Below are positions 17,301 through 28,992 of a stretch of 64,000 nt of DNA, in pieces (the first letter of the stretch is position 1; each line of letters opens with the position of its first letter). The DNA is taken from the NCBI RefSeq assembly GCF_030552475.1, contig NZ_JAUPED010000001.1, positions 124,001 through 188,000 of the forward strand. The letters run 5' to 3'. Source of the DNA: Mariniflexile sp. AS56 (GTDB lineage: Bacteria > Bacteroidota > Bacteroidia > Flavobacteriales > Flavobacteriaceae). The position numbers and the translations under genes were made by a program. Below the pieces are notes generated by a model, which was given only the letters and a program-made list of their open reading frames with translations, ran no database searches and had not been told where the DNA came from.

Positions 17301-17981
17301 TATTTAGCAGGTTTTGATGTGAAGGATGTACATATGACCGATTTAATTTCGGGTCGTGAAACACTAGAAGACATTCAGTTCTTAGGTGCTGTTGGAGGTT
17401 TCTCTAATTCAGATGTTTTAGGCTCTGCTAAAGGTTGGGCAGGTGCTATTAAGTACAATGAAAAAGCAAATAAGGTTATTAATGACTTCTTTAAAAGAGA
17501 AGACACACTATCTGTTGGTATTTGTAATGGATGTCAATTATGGATGGAATTAGAACTTATTAACCCAGAGCACGAGGTTCATGGTAAAATGGGTCATAAT
17601 GATTCGCATAAACATGAAAGTTCCTTTACCTCAGTAAACATACAAAAGAACAATTCCGTAATGCTTTCAACACTTGAAGGCACTACTTTAGGTGTTTGGA
17701 TTTCTCATGGTGAAGGTAAATTTAACTTACCTAATACGGAAGACCAATATAATATTGTTGCTAAATACGGTTATGAGGGCTACCCTAACAACCCAAATGG
17801 CTCTGACTTTAATACCGCTATATTAACGGATAAAACAGGTCGTCACTTAGTAACTATGCCACATATTGAACGTTCTACATTCCAATGGAACTGGGCAAAC
17901 TACCCAGAGAACAGAAAAGACGAAGTATCACCTTGGCTTGAAGCCTTTGTGAATGCTAGACTTTGGCTAGAAAATAACTAA
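14307..17981 (+). CDS. purL: Phosphoribosylformylglycinamidine synthase, long form
   Basis: 1224 residues, close to the large single-chain enzyme (PurL of the E. coli type), which carries both synthetase and glutaminase. It converts FGAR, ATP and glutamine to FGAM in step four of purine synthesis. The FGAM synthetase halves are recognised by SQVNSEHCRHKIF (about residue 166), LKAETHNFPTTVEPFNGAATG (its first 20 residues suffice, about 246) and the second AIR-synthetase core with GKDSLSMKQ. The C-terminal glutamine amidotransferase has the nucleophile in GICNGCQLWM (about 1071), with HGEGKF and a His near the end. It is transcribed alone, with a promoter at 14266 and a perfect palindromic terminator after it. 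Confidence 0.97.
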   Translation: MIHFFGDVTSKVFAVQTTKELSTETIAKLTWLFGNQPKIEQASLDAFFVGPRAAMITPWSTNAVEITQNMGVSDIIRIEEFQASTEDFKGFDPMISEKFEGLNQESFTINIQPEPILNIEDIAAYNQKEGLSLSEEEVGYLDGVAKKIGRPLTDSEVFGFSQVNSEHCRHKIFNGTFVIDGEEKPTSLFKLIRKTSETHPNDIVSAYKDNVAFVKGPVVEQFAPKTADKPDYYQLKDFESVISLKAETHNFPTTVEPFNGAATGAGGEIRDRLAGGKGSLPLAGTAVYMTSYSRLEENRPWEQKFEARDWLYQTPMDILIKASNGASDFGNKFGQPLITGSVLTFEHNENGSASDSKARKLGYDKVIMQAGGIGYGKAEQALKDTPKKGDKIVILGGENYRIGMGGAAVSSADTGAFASGIELNAVQRSNPEMQKRAANAVRGMVESDENFIVSIHDHGAGGHLNCLSELVEDTGGNIDLDALPVGDPTLSDKEIIGNESQERMGLVISEKHIDTLQRIAERERSPIYTVGDVTEDDRFTFQSKTKGNKPMDLALEDMFGSSPKTILTDKTIARNYKNPRYKTKNLQIYLEQVLQLEAVACKDWLTNKVDRCVGGKVAKQQCVGALQIPLNNVGVMALDFKGKEGVATSIGHSPISGLINPAAGSRNAITEALTNLVWAPLKDGLQAVSLSANWMWPCKNEGEDARLYEAVKAVSEFAIDLGINVPTGKDSLSMKQKYPNEDVISPGTVIISAGANCNDITKVVEPVLKQDAGAIYYINISQDAFKLGGSSFNQVLNAIGNEAPNVKDAAFVKTVFNTIQDLIKADKIKAGHDVASGGLITTLLELCFADTNLGADFDLSKLNEEDSIKVLFAENSGIVFQADASVETVLSENNIEFFNIGSVNNTGNVTIKNNDDSFTFDVAKTRDVWYKTSYLLDQKQTANNLAEDRFNNYKNQPLQYTFPKNFTGKLEAFKGKRPKAAILREKGSNSEREMANAMYLAGFDVKDVHMTDLISGRETLEDIQFLGAVGGFSNSDVLGSAKGWAGAIKYNEKANKVINDFFKREDTLSVGICNGCQLWMELELINPEHEVHGKMGHNDSHKHESSFTSVNIQKNNSVMLSTLEGTTLGVWISHGEGKFNLPNTEDQYNIVAKYGYEGYPNNPNGSDFNTAILTDKTGRHLVTMPHIERSTFQWNWANYPENRKDEVSPWLEAFVNARLWLENN

Positions 17982-17982
17982 T

Positions 17983-18014
17983 AAAAAGAGCATCTAAATT
18001 TAGATGCTCTTTTT
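17983..18014 (+). terminator. Perfect palindromic terminator after purL
   Basis: A perfect 16-bp inverted repeat with no spacer (17983-17998 with 17999-18014). It begins with AAAAAGAGCATC and ends in TTTTT. The real hairpin will have a small A/T loop. Confidence 0.85.
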
Positions 18015-18067
18015 ATTTAAAAAAATATCACACTCTATCATATTGAAGATTGCGGTTTTTATGTTAA

Positions 18068-21189: not shown

Positions 21190-22959
21190 ATGGCAGATAT
21201 TACTAGAATTTTTGATTTTCCTTACCATCAATTAGATACGTACAATTTAGAAAAAGCTTTCACTACGAAATATAATGGTGTATGGAAATCTATTTCTACT
21301 CAAGAATTCATCAATCAAGCCAATGCCATAAGCAGAGGTTTATTGCGTTTGGGAATACAACCGAATGATAAAATAGCTGTTATTTCTTCTACAAACAGAA
21401 CAGAATGGAATGTTTTAGATATTGGTGTACTACAAACGGGGGCACAAAATGTACCTATTTACCCAACCATCGCTTCAGAAGATTATGAATACATTCTAAA
21501 TCATTCCGAAGCTACCTTTTGTTTTGTTTCAGATGTTGAAGTTCTTAAAAAGTTAAACGCCATAAAGGATAAAACGGCACTAAAAAACATCTATACGTTT
21601 GATGTTATTGAAGGAGAAAACCAATGGACCGATGTTTTAACTTTAGGTCAAGACACCAGTAACCAAACAGAAGTACAAGCTAGAAAAGATGCTGTTAAAC
21701 CTTCAGATTTGGCAACATTAATTTACACTTCAGGGACTACCGGTAGACCAAAAGGCGTTATGCTTTCTCATAATAATTTAGTTAGTAATGTTCTAGATAG
21801 CGAAAAACGGGTGCCATTTCATTATGGAAAATCAAAAGGCTTAAGCTTTCTTCCTGTCTGTCACGTTTTTGAACGTATGATCCTTTACTTATATATATAC
21901 TGTGGTGTTGAAGTTTATTTTGCGGAGTCTATTGACAAAATGAGCGACAACCTAAAAGAGATAAAACCAAACGTTATGACCGCCGTTCCGCGTTTATACG
22001 AAAAGGTATTTGACAAAATAGTGGCTAAAGGAGCCGATTTAAAAGGTATTAAAAAAGCATTATTCTTTTGGGCTTTAAACTTAGGCTTGAAGTTTGAACC
22101 TTACGGTAAAAATGGTGCTTGGTACGAATTCCAGTTAAAAATAGCTAGGAAACTAATTTTTAGTAAGTGGCAAGAAGGTTTAGGTGGTAATTTAGACCTG
22201 ATGGTTTCTGGTAGTGCCGCTTTACAAACTAGATTAACACGGGTATTTGCAGCAGCCCAACTCCCTATTATGGAAGGTTACGGACTTACAGAAACCTCGC
22301 CAGTAATTACCGTAAATGATATGCGAAATGGTGGTTTCAGAATAGGAACTGTTGGAAAACCCATTAATAATGTTGAAGTTAAAATTGCCGAAGACGGTGA
22401 AATTCTAGCCAAAGGACCTAATATTATGCTTGGCTATTTCAAAGATCCTGAAAAAACAGCCTCGGTAATGACAGGCGATTATTTTCACACTGGGGATATT
22501 GGTGAATTTGATGCTGATGGTTTCTTAAAAATTACCGACCGAAAAAAGGAAATGTTTAAAACCTCTGGCGGAAAATATGTTGCGCCTGCACTTATTGAAA
22601 ATCAATTTAAACAATCTCTTTTTATAGAGCAAATTATGGTAATTGGTGAAGGTGAAAAAATGCCTGCCGCTTTAATACAACTTAATTTTGATTTTGTTAA
22701 AGACTGGGCGAAAAAACACCATATAGCTTTCAATAACACCAGCGACCTCATCACAAACACAACGTTATTAGAACGTATTCAAAGTGAAATAGACAAAGCG
22801 AATAGCTGTTTTGGTCATTGGGAACAAATAAAAAAGTTTGAAATAACACCAGATGTTTGGACTATTGAAGCAGGCCATTTAACACCAACAATGAAATTAA
22901 AGCGTAAGATAATTAAAGAAAAATACGCAGCCCTTATCGAAAATATTTACAGACCGTAA
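21190..22959 (+). CDS. Long-chain acyl-CoA ligase (AMP-dependent synthetase)
   Basis: 589 residues of the ANL superfamily. The P-loop motif IYTSGTTGRPKGVMLSH (about residues 180-196), the adenylate motif GYGLTETSPVI (about 364) and YFHTGDIGEFDADGF with KITDRKKEMFKTSGGKYVAP (A8 and hinge region) are all present. It activates fatty acids to acyl-CoA with ATP and so feeds beta-oxidation. It is the FadD15/long-chain type found widely in Bacteroidota. The marR-fadN-fadA-fadE operon begins 175 bases downstream in the same direction, which supports a fatty-acid catabolic role. A promoter lies directly upstream. Confidence 0.92.
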   Translation: MADITRIFDFPYHQLDTYNLEKAFTTKYNGVWKSISTQEFINQANAISRGLLRLGIQPNDKIAVISSTNRTEWNVLDIGVLQTGAQNVPIYPTIASEDYEYILNHSEATFCFVSDVEVLKKLNAIKDKTALKNIYTFDVIEGENQWTDVLTLGQDTSNQTEVQARKDAVKPSDLATLIYTSGTTGRPKGVMLSHNNLVSNVLDSEKRVPFHYGKSKGLSFLPVCHVFERMILYLYIYCGVEVYFAESIDKMSDNLKEIKPNVMTAVPRLYEKVFDKIVAKGADLKGIKKALFFWALNLGLKFEPYGKNGAWYEFQLKIARKLIFSKWQEGLGGNLDLMVSGSAALQTRLTRVFAAAQLPIMEGYGLTETSPVITVNDMRNGGFRIGTVGKPINNVEVKIAEDGEILAKGPNIMLGYFKDPEKTASVMTGDYFHTGDIGEFDADGFLKITDRKKEMFKTSGGKYVAPALIENQFKQSLFIEQIMVIGEGEKMPAALIQLNFDFVKDWAKKHHIAFNNTSDLITNTTLLERIQSEIDKANSCFGHWEQIKKFEITPDVWTIEAGHLTPTMKLKRKIIKEKYAALIENIYRP

Positions 22960-22993: not shown

Positions 22994-23021
22994 AAATTTA
23001 TTATGCATGCATAATAAATTT
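22994..23021. promoter_or_regulatory. Perfect 28-bp palindrome, probable MarR operator
   Basis: Every base from 22994 to 23021 pairs with its mirror; the centre is GCATGC and the core TTATGCATGCATAA. It lies where the -33 element of the marR promoter should be, 3 bases upstream of the -7 element. A dyad at this position is the usual arrangement for an autoregulated MarR dimer. Binding is inferred. Confidence 0.75.
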
Positions 23022-23024
23022 TCA

Positions 23025-23032
23025 TATATTTG
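23025..23032 (+). promoter_or_regulatory. -7 promoter element of the marR-fadNAE operon
   Basis: TATATTTG matches TAnnTTTG. The -33 region is occupied by the palindrome at 22994. The leader to the marR ATG is about 100 bases and contains a 21-codon micro-frame (23057-23122). Confidence 0.6.
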
Positions 23033-23134
23033 AGTCAACCAACCAAAATATATGAAATGAAAGAACATATAAATACTCTCAAACAACATATAGTTTTTGC
23101 TTTTCATCTTAGCATTTTATAATAAAATAACCAG

Positions 23135-23581
23135 ATGACAGACAAAACAATAGATTATATATTAAGGACCACATGGCTATCTGTGCAAAAAATGTACAAC
23201 GAAGAAGCCTCAAAATTTGAAAGTACCATGGCTACTGGGTTTACATTACTTAGTATAGACCGCGAAAATGGTTCGCCTTCAACAGCATTGGGTCCTAAAA
23301 TGGGAATGGAAGCCACAAGCTTATCCAGGATTTTAAAAACCATGGAACAAAAAGGCTTAATAGAACGCCGCCCAAACCCAGAAGACGGAAGAGGTGTTAT
23401 TATTCACCTTACTGCGTATGGTCATGCACAACGGGCCTACTCAAAAGACAGGGTTTTAACCTTTAATGAGGCTATAAAAAAGAATATTTCAGAAGAAAAA
23501 CTAAAAAGTTTCTATGAAGTGGCCGATTTAATTAACGACCTAATATCTAACAAAAAAATTTACGATCAAAACGACAAGTAA
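23135..23581 (+). CDS. MarR-family transcriptional regulator of the fad operon
   Basis: 148 residues with the winged-helix MarR fold. An N-terminal dimer helix (WLSVQKMYNEEASKFESTM) comes first. A recognition-helix region follows, MGMEATSLSRILKTMEQKGLIERRPNPEDGRGVIIHLTAYG, in which the wing DGRGVIIHLT is typical (about residues 50-95). It is the first gene of an operon with fadN (6-base gap), fadA and fadE, and a perfect palindrome overlaps its promoter. It most likely represses its own operon until acyl-CoA or a fatty acid binds. The ligand is inferred from the neighbours and not visible in the sequence. Confidence 0.9.
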   Translation: MTDKTIDYILRTTWLSVQKMYNEEASKFESTMATGFTLLSIDRENGSPSTALGPKMGMEATSLSRILKTMEQKGLIERRPNPEDGRGVIIHLTAYGHAQRAYSKDRVLTFNEAIKKNISEEKLKSFYEVADLINDLISNKKIYDQNDK

Positions 23582-23587
23582 TTTAAA

Positions 23588-25981
23588 ATGAGCAAACGAA
23601 GAATTAAAAAAGTAGCCATTATTGGCTCTGGAATTATGGGTAGCGGTATTGCATGCCACTTCGCAAATATTGGCGTAGACGTGTTATTACTAGACATTGT
23701 TCCTAGAGAATTAACCCCTGCTGAAAAAGCTAAAGGTTTAACACTTGAAGATAAAGCAGTAAGAAACCGATTGGTTAATGATGCTTTAACAGCTTCATTA
23801 AAATCGAAACCATCCCCTATTTACCATTCAAGTTTCGCTAAAAGAATTACTACGGGTAATTTAGATGATGACATCGCTAAAGTAAAAGACGTAGATTGGA
23901 TTATGGAGGTTGTTGTAGAACGCCTAGACATAAAAAAAATAGTCTTTGAAAAATTAGAAAAACACAGAAAACCAGGTACGTTAATTACTTCGAACACTTC
24001 TGGTATTCCAATTCATTTTATGAGTGAAGGACGCTCGGAAGATTTTCAAAAGCATTTCTGCGGGACACACTTTTTTAACCCTGCTCGTTATTTAAAATTA
24101 TTTGAAATCATTCCTGGACCCAAAACCGATGCTTCTGTTTTAGAGTTTTTAAATGGTTATGGTGAACAATTTTTAGGAAAAACATCGGTAGTTGCTAAAG
24201 ACACTCCCGCCTTTATAGGTAACCGAATTGGAATTTTTGGAATTCAAAGTTTATTCCACCAAGTAAAAGCACTAGACTTAACGGTTGAAGAAGTTGATAA
24301 ACTTACAGGACCTGTTATTGGTCGTCCAAAATCTGCCACCTTTAGAACGGTAGATGTTGTTGGGTTAGATACTTTAGTGCATGTTGCTAACGGTATTCAT
24401 GAAAATTGCCCTAACGATGAGGCTCATGAACTTTTTAAACTTCCAGACTTCATCAACACCATGATGGAAAATAAATGGCTAGGAAGCAAAACAGGACAAG
24501 GTTTTTATAAAAAAGAAGGTCGAGACATTTTAGCACTAGACTTAAACACCTTAGAATATAAACCGACCAAGAAAACGAAATTTGCTACACTCGAGCTAAC
24601 AAAAACCATCGATAAAGTTATTGATCGTTTTACAGTGCTCGTTTCTGGAAAAGACAAAGCAGGTGATTTTTATAGAAAAAATTTCGCGGCTATGTTTTCA
24701 TATGTATCACATAGAATTCCAGAAATCACAGATGAATTATATAAAATAGATGATGCCATGAAGGCTGGTTTTGGTTGGGAACATGGTCCTTTCCAAATCT
24801 GGGATGCTGTAGGCGTTGCTAAAGGTATCGACATCATGAAAGCTGAAGGTTTAGAACCAGCAGCTTGGGTAAATGATATGCTTGCTTCAGGTAGCACATC
24901 GTTCTACTCTGTAAAAAATGGCACGACTCATTATTATGATATTCCTAAAAAATCACAAGAAAAAATACCTGGACAAGACGGCTTCATTATTTTAGATAAT
25001 ATTAGAAAATCTAAAGAAGTATTTAAAAACACAGGGGTTGTTGTAGAAGATTTAGGCGATGGCATTCTAAACTGTGAATTCCAATCTAAAATGAATACCA
25101 TTGGTGGCGATGTTTTGGCTGGATTAAATAAAGCGGTAGAAATTGCTGAAAAAGACTTTGCAGGTTTAGTTATTGGAAACCAAGCCGCAAATTTCTCTGT
25201 TGGCGCCAACATAGGCATGATCTTCATGATGGCCGTTGAACAAGAATATGACGAATTAAATGCTGCCATTAAATACTTTCAAGATACGATGATGCGCATG
25301 CGTTATTCATCAATCCCAACAGTATCTGCCCCTCATGGTATGACGCTTGGAGGAGGTTGTGAATTATCAATGCACGTTGATAAAGTGGTGGCTGCAGCCG
25401 AAACATATATTGGTTTAGTTGAATTTGGAGTTGGCGTTATCCCTGGTGGTGGCGGTTCCAAGGAAATGGCTTTACGCGCATCAGATTCCTTTAAGAAAGG
25501 TGATGTGGAATTGAACACCTTACAAGAATACTTCTTAACTATTGGTATGGCCAAAGTGGCAACCTCAGCTTATGAAGCTTTCGATATGGGCATACTTCAA
25601 CCAGGAAAAGATATCATTGTTGTAAACAAAGACCGACAATTAGCTACAGCGAAAGCCCATGCTAAACTAATGGCCGAAACTGGTTATACACAACCCGTAA
25701 AACGAACCGATGTTAAAGTTCTTGGAAAACAAGCCTTAGGTATGTTTTTAGTAGGAACCGATTCTATGGAAGCTTCAAAATTTATAAGCGAACACGACCA
25801 TAAAATAGCAAATAAATTAGCCTATGTTATGGCAGGTGGAGACTTATCTGAACCCACTTTAGTAAGTGAACAATATTTACTAGACCTAGAGCGTGAAGCT
25901 TTTTTAAGTTTATGTACAGAACGTAAAACTTTAGAGCGTATTCAACACATGTTAAAAACAGGAAAACCTTTAAGAAACTAA
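23588..25981 (+). CDS. fadN: 3-hydroxyacyl-CoA dehydrogenase / enoyl-CoA hydratase fusion
   Basis: 797 residues. The dehydrogenase is N-terminal, with the NAD-binding GSGIMGSGIACHFANIG (about residues 12-28), TSNTSGIPI and GTHFFNPARYLKLFEIIPG. The hydratase/isomerase (crotonase) domain is C-terminal (about 480-700), with the oxyanion-hole region MTLGGGCELSMH and FGVGVIPGGGGSKEM. This order is the reverse of E. coli FadB and matches the FadN type of Bacillus subtilis in order and length. It performs the hydration and second oxidation of beta-oxidation. It is followed after 2 bases by the thiolase gene. Confidence 0.93.
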   Translation: MSKRRIKKVAIIGSGIMGSGIACHFANIGVDVLLLDIVPRELTPAEKAKGLTLEDKAVRNRLVNDALTASLKSKPSPIYHSSFAKRITTGNLDDDIAKVKDVDWIMEVVVERLDIKKIVFEKLEKHRKPGTLITSNTSGIPIHFMSEGRSEDFQKHFCGTHFFNPARYLKLFEIIPGPKTDASVLEFLNGYGEQFLGKTSVVAKDTPAFIGNRIGIFGIQSLFHQVKALDLTVEEVDKLTGPVIGRPKSATFRTVDVVGLDTLVHVANGIHENCPNDEAHELFKLPDFINTMMENKWLGSKTGQGFYKKEGRDILALDLNTLEYKPTKKTKFATLELTKTIDKVIDRFTVLVSGKDKAGDFYRKNFAAMFSYVSHRIPEITDELYKIDDAMKAGFGWEHGPFQIWDAVGVAKGIDIMKAEGLEPAAWVNDMLASGSTSFYSVKNGTTHYYDIPKKSQEKIPGQDGFIILDNIRKSKEVFKNTGVVVEDLGDGILNCEFQSKMNTIGGDVLAGLNKAVEIAEKDFAGLVIGNQAANFSVGANIGMIFMMAVEQEYDELNAAIKYFQDTMMRMRYSSIPTVSAPHGMTLGGGCELSMHVDKVVAAAETYIGLVEFGVGVIPGGGGSKEMALRASDSFKKGDVELNTLQEYFLTIGMAKVATSAYEAFDMGILQPGKDIIVVNKDRQLATAKAHAKLMAETGYTQPVKRTDVKVLGKQALGMFLVGTDSMEASKFISEHDHKIANKLAYVMAGGDLSEPTLVSEQYLLDLEREAFLSLCTERKTLERIQHMLKTGKPLRN

Positions 25982-25983
25982 AA

Positions 25984-27174
25984 ATGAAACAAGCATATAT
26001 AGTAAAAGCATACAGAACGGCCGTGGGTAAAGCGCCAAAAGGTGTCTTTCGCTTCAAAAGAGCCGATGAATTGGGTGCTGAAACCATCCAACACATGATG
26101 AAAGAGTTACCAAACCTAGACGTGAAACGCATTGACGACGTTATTGTTGGTAATGCCATGCCGGAAGGTGCACAGGGTTTAAACATGGCACGGTTTATTT
26201 CTTTAATAGGACTAAACAGTGTGGATGTACCAGGAGTTACTGTAAACCGTTTTTGTTCATCAGGAATAGAAACTATAGGTATTGCAACAGCAAAAATTCA
26301 AGCAGGAATGGCCGATTGCATAATTGCAGGTGGCTCAGAAAGCATGAGTTCGGTACCTATGACGGGTTTTAAACCTGAATTGAATTATAATACGGTAAAG
26401 GCAGGTCATGAAGATTATTATTGGGGTATGGGAAACACAGCGGAAGCGGTTGCCAACCAATTTAAAGTATCTCGTGAGGACCAAGACGCGTTTGCTTACA
26501 ACTCACACATGAAGGCCCTTAAGGCGCTTGCTGAAAACAGATTTCAAGACCAAATTGTGCCAATAAATGTAGAGCAAGTTTATATAGATGCTAACGGAAA
26601 AAAAGCAACAAAATCTTATACGGTAACAAAAGATGAAGGTCCTCGTGCAGGAACAAGTATGGAGGCCTTAGCCAAATTAAGACCAGTATTTGCAACTGGC
26701 GGAAGTGTTACAGCAGGTAACTCCTCGCAAATGAGTGATGGTGCTGCTTTTGTAATGATTATGAGTGAAGATATGGTTAAAGAACTAAATCTAGAACCTA
26801 TCGCTCGATTAGTAAGTTATGCAGCTGTTGGTGTTGAACCTCGCATCATGGGTATCGGCCCAGTAAAAGCCATCCCAAAAGCGCTAAAGCAAGCCGGATT
26901 ACAACAAAAAGATTTAGACCTAATAGAATTAAACGAAGCCTTTGCGTCCCAATCATTAGCCGTTTTAAGAGAGTTGAACCTCAACCCAGACATTGTAAAT
27001 GTTAACGGTGGAGCCATCTCCTTAGGACACCCTCTGGGTTGTACAGGGGCGAAACTTTCAGTTCAATTGTTTGACGAAATGCGCAAACGCGACATGAAAG
27101 GTAAATATGGTGCTGTAACTATGTGTGTAGGAACAGGACAAGGCGCTTGTGGCGTTTTTGAATTTTTGAATTAA
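25984..27174 (+). CDS. fadA: Acetyl-CoA acyltransferase (3-ketoacyl-CoA thiolase)
   Basis: 396 residues, normal thiolase length. The acyl-accepting cysteine is in VNRFCSSGIETIG (about residue 90). The C-terminal active-site motifs are NVNGGAISLGHPLGCTGAK (catalytic His, about 346) and CVGTGQGACGVFEF (second Cys, about 380). It cleaves 3-ketoacyl-CoA with CoA to give acetyl-CoA and a shortened acyl-CoA. It lies in the marR-fadN-fadA-fadE operon, 2 bases after fadN and 15 bases before fadE. Degradative function is supported by this context; a biosynthetic acetoacetyl-CoA thiolase is less likely. Confidence 0.94.
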   Translation: MKQAYIVKAYRTAVGKAPKGVFRFKRADELGAETIQHMMKELPNLDVKRIDDVIVGNAMPEGAQGLNMARFISLIGLNSVDVPGVTVNRFCSSGIETIGIATAKIQAGMADCIIAGGSESMSSVPMTGFKPELNYNTVKAGHEDYYWGMGNTAEAVANQFKVSREDQDAFAYNSHMKALKALAENRFQDQIVPINVEQVYIDANGKKATKSYTVTKDEGPRAGTSMEALAKLRPVFATGGSVTAGNSSQMSDGAAFVMIMSEDMVKELNLEPIARLVSYAAVGVEPRIMGIGPVKAIPKALKQAGLQQKDLDLIELNEAFASQSLAVLRELNLNPDIVNVNGGAISLGHPLGCTGAKLSVQLFDEMRKRDMKGKYGAVTMCVGTGQGACGVFEFLN

Positions 27175-27189
27175 ATAACAAACAGAATA

Positions 27190-28992
27190 ATGGAAAAAGA
27201 TATATTACGTGGTGGTCAATTTTTAGTTGTAGAATCAAAGTGTGAAGACATTTTCACCCCAGAAGATTTCTCGGAAGAGCAATCTATGATGAAAGAAGCT
27301 GTTACCGAATTCGTTGACAGAGAAATTTGGCCGAATAAAGCACGCTTTGAAGCCAAAGACTATGCCTTGACGGAGTCTTGCATGCGTAAAGCAGGTGAAA
27401 TGGGATTCTTAGGTGTTTCTGTACCTACTGAATACGGTGGTATGGGCATGGGTTTTGTAGACACCATGTTAGTATGTGATTATATTTCTGGTGCCACAGG
27501 ATCTTTTAGTACCGCTTTTGGTGCGCATACAGGTATTGGTACCATGCCAATTACCTTATACGGAACTGAAGAACAAAAACAAAAATATGTGCCAAAATTG
27601 GCTACTGGCGAATGGTTTGGTTCATATTGTTTAACAGAACCTAGTGCTGGTAGTGATGCCAATTCTGGTAAAACAAAAGCTGTTCTATCATCAGACGGAA
27701 AAACATATAATATTACAGGACAAAAAATGTGGATTTCCAATGCCGGTTTTTGTAGTTTAATGATTGTATTTGCTCGTATTGAAGATGATAAAAACATTAC
27801 TGGTTTTATTGTTGAATACGACCCTAAGAACCCAAATGGAATTACAATGGGTGAAGAAGAGCACAAACTAGGTATTCGCGCCTCTTCAACCAGACAAGTA
27901 TTTTTTAGTGATACGGTAGTTCCTGCAGAAAACATGCTATCTACAAGAGGAAACGGTTTTAAAATAGCCATGAATGCCTTAAACGTAGGTAGAATTAAGT
28001 TGGCAGCAGCTTGTTTAGACGCGCAACGTCGTACTATAACCGAATCTGTTAAATACGCCAATGAGCGCGTTCAGTTTAAAACTCCTATTTCAAGTTTTGG
28101 TGCTATTCGTCAAAAAATAGCTGAAATGGCCACCAACTGTTGGGTTGGAGAAGCTGCTAGTTACCGTGCAGCAAAGAATATTGAAGACCGCATTATTATG
28201 CGTCAAAATAACGGAAAAGACACGCACCAAGAAGCAGAATTAAAAGGTGTTGAAGAATATGCAATTGAATGTTCTATCTTAAAAGTAGCCGTTTCTGAGC
28301 ATACACAGAAATGTACAGATGAAGGTATCCAAATTTTTGGAGGTATGGGATTCTCTGAAGAAACCCCTATTGAATCGGCCTGGAGAGATGCACGTATCGC
28401 TAGAATCTATGAAGGTACCAACGAGATTAACCGTATGTTAAGTATTGGTATGCTTATTAAAAAAGCCATGAAAGGGCATGTCGATTTATTGGGCCCTGCA
28501 ACAGCAGTAGCAAATGAGTTAACAGGTATTCCATCATTCGATACACCAGATTTTTCAGAATTATTTTCAGAAGAAAAAAGCATTATAGCCAATCTTAAAA
28601 AATTATTTTTAATGGTTGCGGGTGCTACACTTCAGAAATATGGTGAAGAAGTTGAAAAGCATCAACAACTTATGCTTGCTGCTTCAGATATTCTAATTCA
28701 AATATATATCGCAGAATCTGCTATCTTACGTGCAGAAAAAATATCTAAAAAAGAAGGAGAAGCGAATGCAAAAGAACACATCGCTATGGCTAAATTAAAT
28801 TTATTCCATGCTATCGATGTTATTGAAACTGCTGGAAAACACTCCATCATTTCATTCTCTACAGGCGACGAACAACGTATGATGCTTATGGGCCTAAAAC
28901 GCTATATAAAGTATGTGAACATGCCTAATATTATCGAATTAAGAAATATTATAGCTTCTAAAGTTATTAAAGAAAATAAGTACTGTTTTTAA
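27190..28992 (+). CDS. fadE: Acyl-CoA dehydrogenase, long (FadE/VLCAD-like) form
   Basis: 600 residues, longer than the common 380-residue dehydrogenases. The extra C-terminal helical part is like that of B. subtilis FadE or mitochondrial VLCAD. FAD and substrate-site landmarks are YGGMGMGFVDT, YCLTEPSAGSDANSG (about 153), KMWISNAGFCSLMIVFA (about 180), QIFGGMGFSEETPIE and YEGTNEINRMLSIGMLI (about 410). The base Glu is expected in the last motif. It makes the first oxidation of beta-oxidation and passes electrons to ETF. It is the final gene of the fad operon, and a 16-bp terminator stem starts 28 bases after the stop. Confidence 0.93.
   Translation: MEKDILRGGQFLVVESKCEDIFTPEDFSEEQSMMKEAVTEFVDREIWPNKARFEAKDYALTESCMRKAGEMGFLGVSVPTEYGGMGMGFVDTMLVCDYISGATGSFSTAFGAHTGIGTMPITLYGTEEQKQKYVPKLATGEWFGSYCLTEPSAGSDANSGKTKAVLSSDGKTYNITGQKMWISNAGFCSLMIVFARIEDDKNITGFIVEYDPKNPNGITMGEEEHKLGIRASSTRQVFFSDTVVPAENMLSTRGNGFKIAMNALNVGRIKLAAACLDAQRRTITESVKYANERVQFKTPISSFGAIRQKIAEMATNCWVGEAASYRAAKNIEDRIIMRQNNGKDTHQEAELKGVEEYAIECSILKVAVSEHTQKCTDEGIQIFGGMGFSEETPIESAWRDARIARIYEGTNEINRMLSIGMLIKKAMKGHVDLLGPATAVANELTGIPSFDTPDFSELFSEEKSIIANLKKLFLMVAGATLQKYGEEVEKHQQLMLAASDILIQIYIAESAILRAEKISKKEGEANAKEHIAMAKLNLFHAIDVIETAGKHSIISFSTGDEQRMMLMGLKRYIKYVNMPNIIELRNIIASKVIKENKYCF

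Follow-up and report, generated by a model that had tools for sequence, protein, structure and literature searches.

The window, by which we mean the whole stretch of 64,000 nucleotides that was analysed, carries a perfect palindrome between an acyl-CoA ligase gene and a series of genes headed by marR and continuing with beta-oxidation enzymes. The ligase gene ends just before the site in many relatives too. The features of the locus are as follows.

21190 to 22959, + strand: acyl-CoA ligase gene, upstream of the proposed operator (profile annotation)
22994 to 23021, no strand: perfect 28-bp palindrome AAATTTATTATGCATGCATAATAAATTT (dyad search of the window)
22996 to 23019, no strand: putative operator proper, about 24 bp (arms co-vary among relatives)
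23002 to 23013, no strand: core TATGCATGCATA with half-sites TATGC/GCATA (sequence and close-locus comparison)
23026 to 23033, + strand: TATATTTG, predicted -7 box of the marR–fad promoter (TAnnTTTG also in relatives)
23034 to 23134, + strand: leader between -7 box and marR start; that of most relatives is shorter by about 83 bp
23135 to 23581, + strand: marR, 148 aa, proposed binder (Pfam MarR, 9e-13; AlphaFold2 MarR fold)
23588 to 25981, + strand: fadN-like 3-hydroxyacyl-CoA dehydrogenase/enoyl-CoA hydratase gene (profile annotation)
25984 to 27174, + strand: fadA-like thiolase gene (profile annotation)
27190 to 28992, + strand: fadE-like acyl-CoA dehydrogenase gene (profile annotation)

The box TATATTTG lies 18 bp after the centre of the dyad. 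TATG at 23002–23005, 20 bp before this box, occupies what we take to be the place of the TTTG -33 element of the consensus. Within the marR leader we also noted a 21-codon open reading frame (23057–23122), the start of which resembles the marR start of relatives.

The initial annotation described a 28-bp perfect dyad that chance would hardly produce, and both points were confirmed. The sequence is identical to its own reverse complement, with 14 bp in each arm, and is the second longest gapless palindrome in the window; the only longer one is a terminator-like 38-mer. The longest arm was 12 bp in 60 order-1 Markov copies of the window and 11 bp in 60 order-3 copies, so that no arm of 14 bp arose in 120 simulated windows. 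No second copy of the 28-mer with up to 3 mismatches was found in the window or in 100 shuffles, and the 14-mer core, again with up to 3 mismatches, showed no enrichment in the window (7 matches versus 7.1 expected). The 38-mer (17980–18017) is itself a perfect gapless palindrome that ends in T and follows a purL-like gene, and is probably a terminator.

To define the extent of the site, we applied a symmetry test to 60 distinct 28-mers from relatives. Positions ±2 to 6 and ±9 were invariant, and ±8 was paired in 58. Paired changes exceeded expectation at ±7 (52/60 versus 31.5), ±10 (44/60 versus 28.2) and ±11 (47/60 versus 31.6), and weakly at ±12 (52/60 versus 45.9), with no excess in these 28-mers at ±1 (31 versus 36.0) or at ±13 to 16; the genomes are akin, and the p-values of this test are not those of independent events. 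Because the arms co-vary to about ±12 and not at ±13 to 16, we place the putative operator at 22996–23019, about 24 bp. Paired changes of this kind are what a two-fold symmetric protein site of that size would look like. The full 28 bp did not hold as a conserved unit, and we dropped the importance first given to its complete perfection: the two outermost pairs of each arm lack co-variation among relatives, and their match is probably incidental in AT-rich DNA.

Conservation was examined at three depths. In the close set, consisting of the window and the best 80 of 552 marR relatives, TATGCNNGCATA was present within 250 bp upstream of marR at all 81 loci. In 72 of the 81, a distance of 40–47 bp separated the centre of the nearest site from the start codon downstream; in the window it was 127 bp. 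From 129 genomes of the order with a MarR orthologue (a genome with a weak match, G076, E 3e-5, was not counted as having one), we picked 40 mostly diverged loci; within 200 bp upstream, 33 had TATGCRYGCATA and a further 4 TATGCTTGCATA, so that 37 of 40 had TATGCNNGCATA. The others were L268, which had GTGCACGCATA alone, and L277 and L280, where the pattern search found nothing similar at marR. Outside the order, TATGCNNGCATA was present at 6 of 9 loci, a count that leaves out six hits of at least 72 bits (G430, G365, G258, G345, G329 and G379); two further loci (L351 and L357) had a one-base variant and one (L361) had none. A fadN-like open reading frame follows in eight of the nine. We had considered that the motif might be peculiar to the genus, and abandoned this idea in view of the diverged loci and those outside the order. 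Conservation upstream of orthologous operons, on which the initial annotation had staked its model, was found at all three depths.

The placement of the dyad where a -33 element would stand, before a clean -7 box, also proved general. TAnnTTTG follows the dyad centre by 17 bp at 60 of the close loci, 18 bp at 19 and 19 bp at one, and is absent from one. At these 80 of 81 loci, where the spacing is 17–19 bp, a bound dimer would therefore cover the -33 region. Tandem sites 27–29 bp apart occur at marR in 18 of the 81 close loci (including L024, L045 and L046) and also at L304 and L305; they possibly permit cooperative binding.

The marR product has a MarR winged-helix domain (PF01047, 9e-13, above the curated cut-off), and its AlphaFold2 model (pLDDT 91.9) adopts the MarR fold. 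All fold matches listed belong to the MarR type; they include CouR, MepR and FabT, which have been solved with DNA. None of 11 named NCBIfam MarR equivalog families, HpaR, SlyA and OhrR among them, reached its cut-off (best, 39.5 bits versus 200). The recognition-helix region is nearly invariant in the orthologues compared, and a palindromic site at its own promoter, as found in the MarR family, accompanies the gene throughout the close set.

Across genomes, the motif and MarR go together. In 60 genomes of the family, TATGCRYGCATA matched 244 times and its reversed pattern 15 times; 54 genomes had both motif and MarR, 4 had neither, one (G038) had MarR only and one (G020, 84% complete) the motif only. 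In 196 genomes of the order, 119 had both, 10 MarR only, 5 the motif only and 62 neither (p 4e-34); leaving out family f15, which consists of genomes of 0.3–0.6 Mb, the counts were 119, 10, 4 and 23 (p 6e-16). These p-values overstate independence, as the genomes are akin and the family and order samples overlap. Six of the ten order genomes with MarR and no TATGCRYGCATA keep TATGCTTGCATA at marR (G078, G088, G102, G103, G197 and G204), as does G038; the other four (G100, G146, G252 and G152) have neither TATGCRYGCATA in the genome nor TATGCTTGCATA at marR. The motif-only genomes of the order are G074, G075, G085, G099 and G253. G074, which is 99% complete and has no detected MarR orthologue, carries three sites (L308, L309 and L310), one of them at an NMO-like gene.

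We consider it highly probable (about 0.87) that the palindrome serves as operator for the product of the next gene, the MarR-family protein. We infer which protein binds, in which direction it acts and what releases it: a MarR dimer would bind the half-sites TATGC/GCATA, cover the -33 region 17–18 bp upstream of TAnnTTTG and keep RNA polymerase off the promoter. Expression of marR, fadN, fadA and fadE would thereby be kept low, combining autorepression with repression of beta-oxidation, until the protein is released by a ligand derived from fatty acids, for which a long-chain acyl-CoA is the most likely candidate. The same motif would also serve etfB/pdhB, the NMO-like enzyme, FabH-like genes and the TonB receptor beside glmS. 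Autorepression by covering the -33 region, as the initial annotation proposed, gains support in silico from the conservation, the fixed spacing and the co-occurrence. A study of Flavobacterium psychrophilum reports strong up-regulation of beta-oxidation genes by fish mucus and plasma (PMC9723704), as would fit an inducible system; the main text of that paper makes no mention of MarR.

The genome of the window (4.65 Mb) contains 6 exact sites versus 1 control match, with about 1.3 predicted from base composition. They lie at the marR–fad operon, a TonB receptor gene by glmS, another by aspS, rpmF/fabH, the gene for an NMO-like enzyme and the gap between etfB and pdhB. The acyl-CoA ligase gene, where a further site had been anticipated, has none of its own among these six. 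We read 81 of the 244 family sites, from 19 genomes: all 6 in the window's genome, plus 75 from 18 others, with G035 represented by 1 of its 3 sites. The adjoining genes were marR (18 sites), etfB (18), pdhB (17), NMO-like (12), TonB receptor (10), FabH-like (10), a 166-aa protein (6) and a 646-aa protein (4), and 69 of the 81 sites face a recurring gene of the clustered set. The remaining 12 face single genes, among them those for a FadL-type protein (L174) and a GDSL lipase (L201) and others with no evident link. Sites L206, L223 and L230, inside long open reading frames, look accidental. In family f4, the four etfB sites read do not adjoin pdhB. In other organisms, the electrons of acyl-CoA dehydrogenation are carried by electron-transfer flavoproteins, according to a review (PMC9329746).

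Four of the ten FabH-like neighbours represent the rpmF/fabH place (L106, L222, L226 and L233). Here the site comes right after the rpmF stop codon; a hairpin resembling a terminator comes next, then fabH, and TAnnTTGY lies 69–70 bp on from the site. We had regarded L106 as accidental, a view given up once the same place was found in 4 of 19 genomes, and we keep it as a possible target. Facing the motif at L178, L184, L190 and L224 is a secreted-looking protein of 166–167 aa with no Pfam match, often divergent from the NMO-like gene.

To compare promoter layouts, we searched 149 family genomes for TATGCNNGCATA followed by TAnnTTTG at 10–40 bp or by TAnnTTGY at 36–66 bp; spacings above 40 bp for TAnnTTTG and below 36 bp for TAnnTTGY fall outside this search. 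Among the matches listed, TAnnTTTG spacings peaked at 17–18 bp (83 of 150 rows) and at 14–15 bp (24 of 150), and TAnnTTGY spacings at 45–49 bp (67 of 90); the reversed control patterns gave 18 matches in all in the TAnnTTTG search and 16 in the TAnnTTGY search. TAnnTTGY is the SM5 box of F. psychrophilum, which differs from the sigma-A consensus (PMC9723704). In the read set, all 18 marR segments had TAnnTTTG and none had TAnnTTGY. TAnnTTGY occurred in 8 of 10 TonB segments (0.9 expected) and 8 of 10 FabH-like segments (1.5 expected), and TAnnTTTG in none of these 20. At etfB, 21 of 26 segments had a relaxed box at 27–30 bp. With the start of the box taken as -12, site centres fall near -30 at marR, near -40 at etfB and at -58 to -62 at the TonB, FabH-like and pdhB genes. 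The position at marR suits a repressor; those at etfB, TonB, FabH-like and pdhB genes are compatible with an activator without proving activation.

This split into two geometries, 14–18 bp before TAnnTTTG versus 45–49 bp before TAnnTTGY, hints at dual control in the manner of FadR. Tentatively, and with the odds somewhat against it, one MarR-type protein might act as a lipid master switch in Bacteroidia, having reached the logic of FadR independently. It would repress beta-oxidation and the NMO-like gene from 14–18 bp before TAnnTTTG, and activate FabH-like and TonB-receptor genes from 45–49 bp before TAnnTTGY and electron-transfer genes (etfB/pdhB) from 27–30 or about 50 bp, with acyl-CoA flipping both programmes. 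We gave this reading less weight because the etfB sites of family f4 have a repressor-like spacing, with the relaxed box at 17–18 bp in 3 of 4 segments. The review describes dual control as seemingly specific to Escherichia coli FadR (PMC9329746).

Several other explanations for the dyad were weighed. A chance palindrome in AT-rich DNA is next to impossible: although the outermost pairs are not kept as pairs and TATGCRYGCATA is expected about 1.3 times per 4.65 Mb from base composition, its presence at a matching place in the promoter of all 81 close loci already contradicts it, as do the 120 simulated windows, none of which had an arm of such length. The dyad could instead act as an RNA hairpin, either ending transcription of the acyl-CoA ligase gene upstream or forming a leader structure. 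Its RNA is foldable (-11.2 kcal/mol, z -1.99, with 7 of 200 shuffles folding as well), and the upstream gene is on the same strand in 78 of 81 close loci. We judge this highly improbable, as that gene is divergent in the other 3, the etfB sites of the family sit between divergent genes, the site lies upstream of the -7 box at a fixed spacing, and the half-site letters are invariant whereas an RNA stem would need pairing alone; the hairpin at 17980–18017 is also far stronger (-20.8 kcal/mol, z -8.49).

The remaining alternatives accept a protein site. Another transcription factor might bind the motif, with marR merely lying within one of its target operons. The five motif-only genomes of the order, with the three sites of G074, would fit this, a Crp-type gene adjoins the NMO site of this genome, and marR is always inside the presumed target operon where examined, so that the binder cannot be identified from the marR site alone. 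We nevertheless regard another factor as unlikely: across genomes, the motif and MarR tend to be present or absent together, and the Crp-type gene forms a single-member cluster beside the sites read. MarR dimers are known binders of symmetric sites of about this size, and the fold matches include CouR bound to a 23-mer. It is also very unlikely that the same protein at the same site mainly activates the fad operon. Some MarR proteins activate, and sites at other genes are in activator-compatible positions, but the centre of the marR site, 17–18 bp before the -7 box and near -30, lies over the -33 region. The dyad is thus very probably the docking site of a repressor made from the next gene. 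The initial observation and model stand, with an operator that is probably about 24 bp, is kept by most orthologues examined and appears tied to a lipid-related gene set.

The initial annotation knew of no such operator for flavobacterial fatty-acid regulators, and among the open-access matches listed, judged by titles and the starts of abstracts, we found no earlier description of operator or regulator; one elsewhere is possible. The analysis thus proposes candidates for the regulator, the operator and the targets of fatty-acid use in a group with none among those matches. The motif appears specific enough for target prediction in sequenced relatives, and the two geometries raise the testable question of dual control.

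Among known systems, PsrA and the TetR-type FadR repress beta-oxidation genes in other phyla; unlike the MarR protein here, they belong to the TetR family, and they use other operators. CouR, which has an aromatic-CoA ligand, shares the MarR fold, and its complex with a 23-mer duplex (6c2s) is our fifth fold match, but identity is 22%; CouR and other acyl-CoA-sensing MarR proteins govern aromatic-acid catabolism from other operators. Streptococcus FabT is likewise a MarR-family lipid regulator, and its DNA complex (6jbx) is among the fold matches, but identity is about 20%, and FabT regulates fatty-acid synthesis through a different operator. A further parallel is E. coli FadR, of the GntR family, where one regulator also uses a symmetric operator before beta-oxidation genes. 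The GntR DNA-binding domain is absent from our protein, in which only MarR/winged-helix families match at E ≤ 0.001; the candidate binder is thus a MarR protein and not a FadR, although it may work like one. FadR also activates fatty-acid synthesis genes, bound upstream of -35, according to the review (PMC9329746). Some of our sites likewise have FabH-like genes as neighbours; activation is here something that we only infer. FadR shows no autoregulation according to the same review (PMC9329746); by contrast, the site described here stands at the regulator's own gene.
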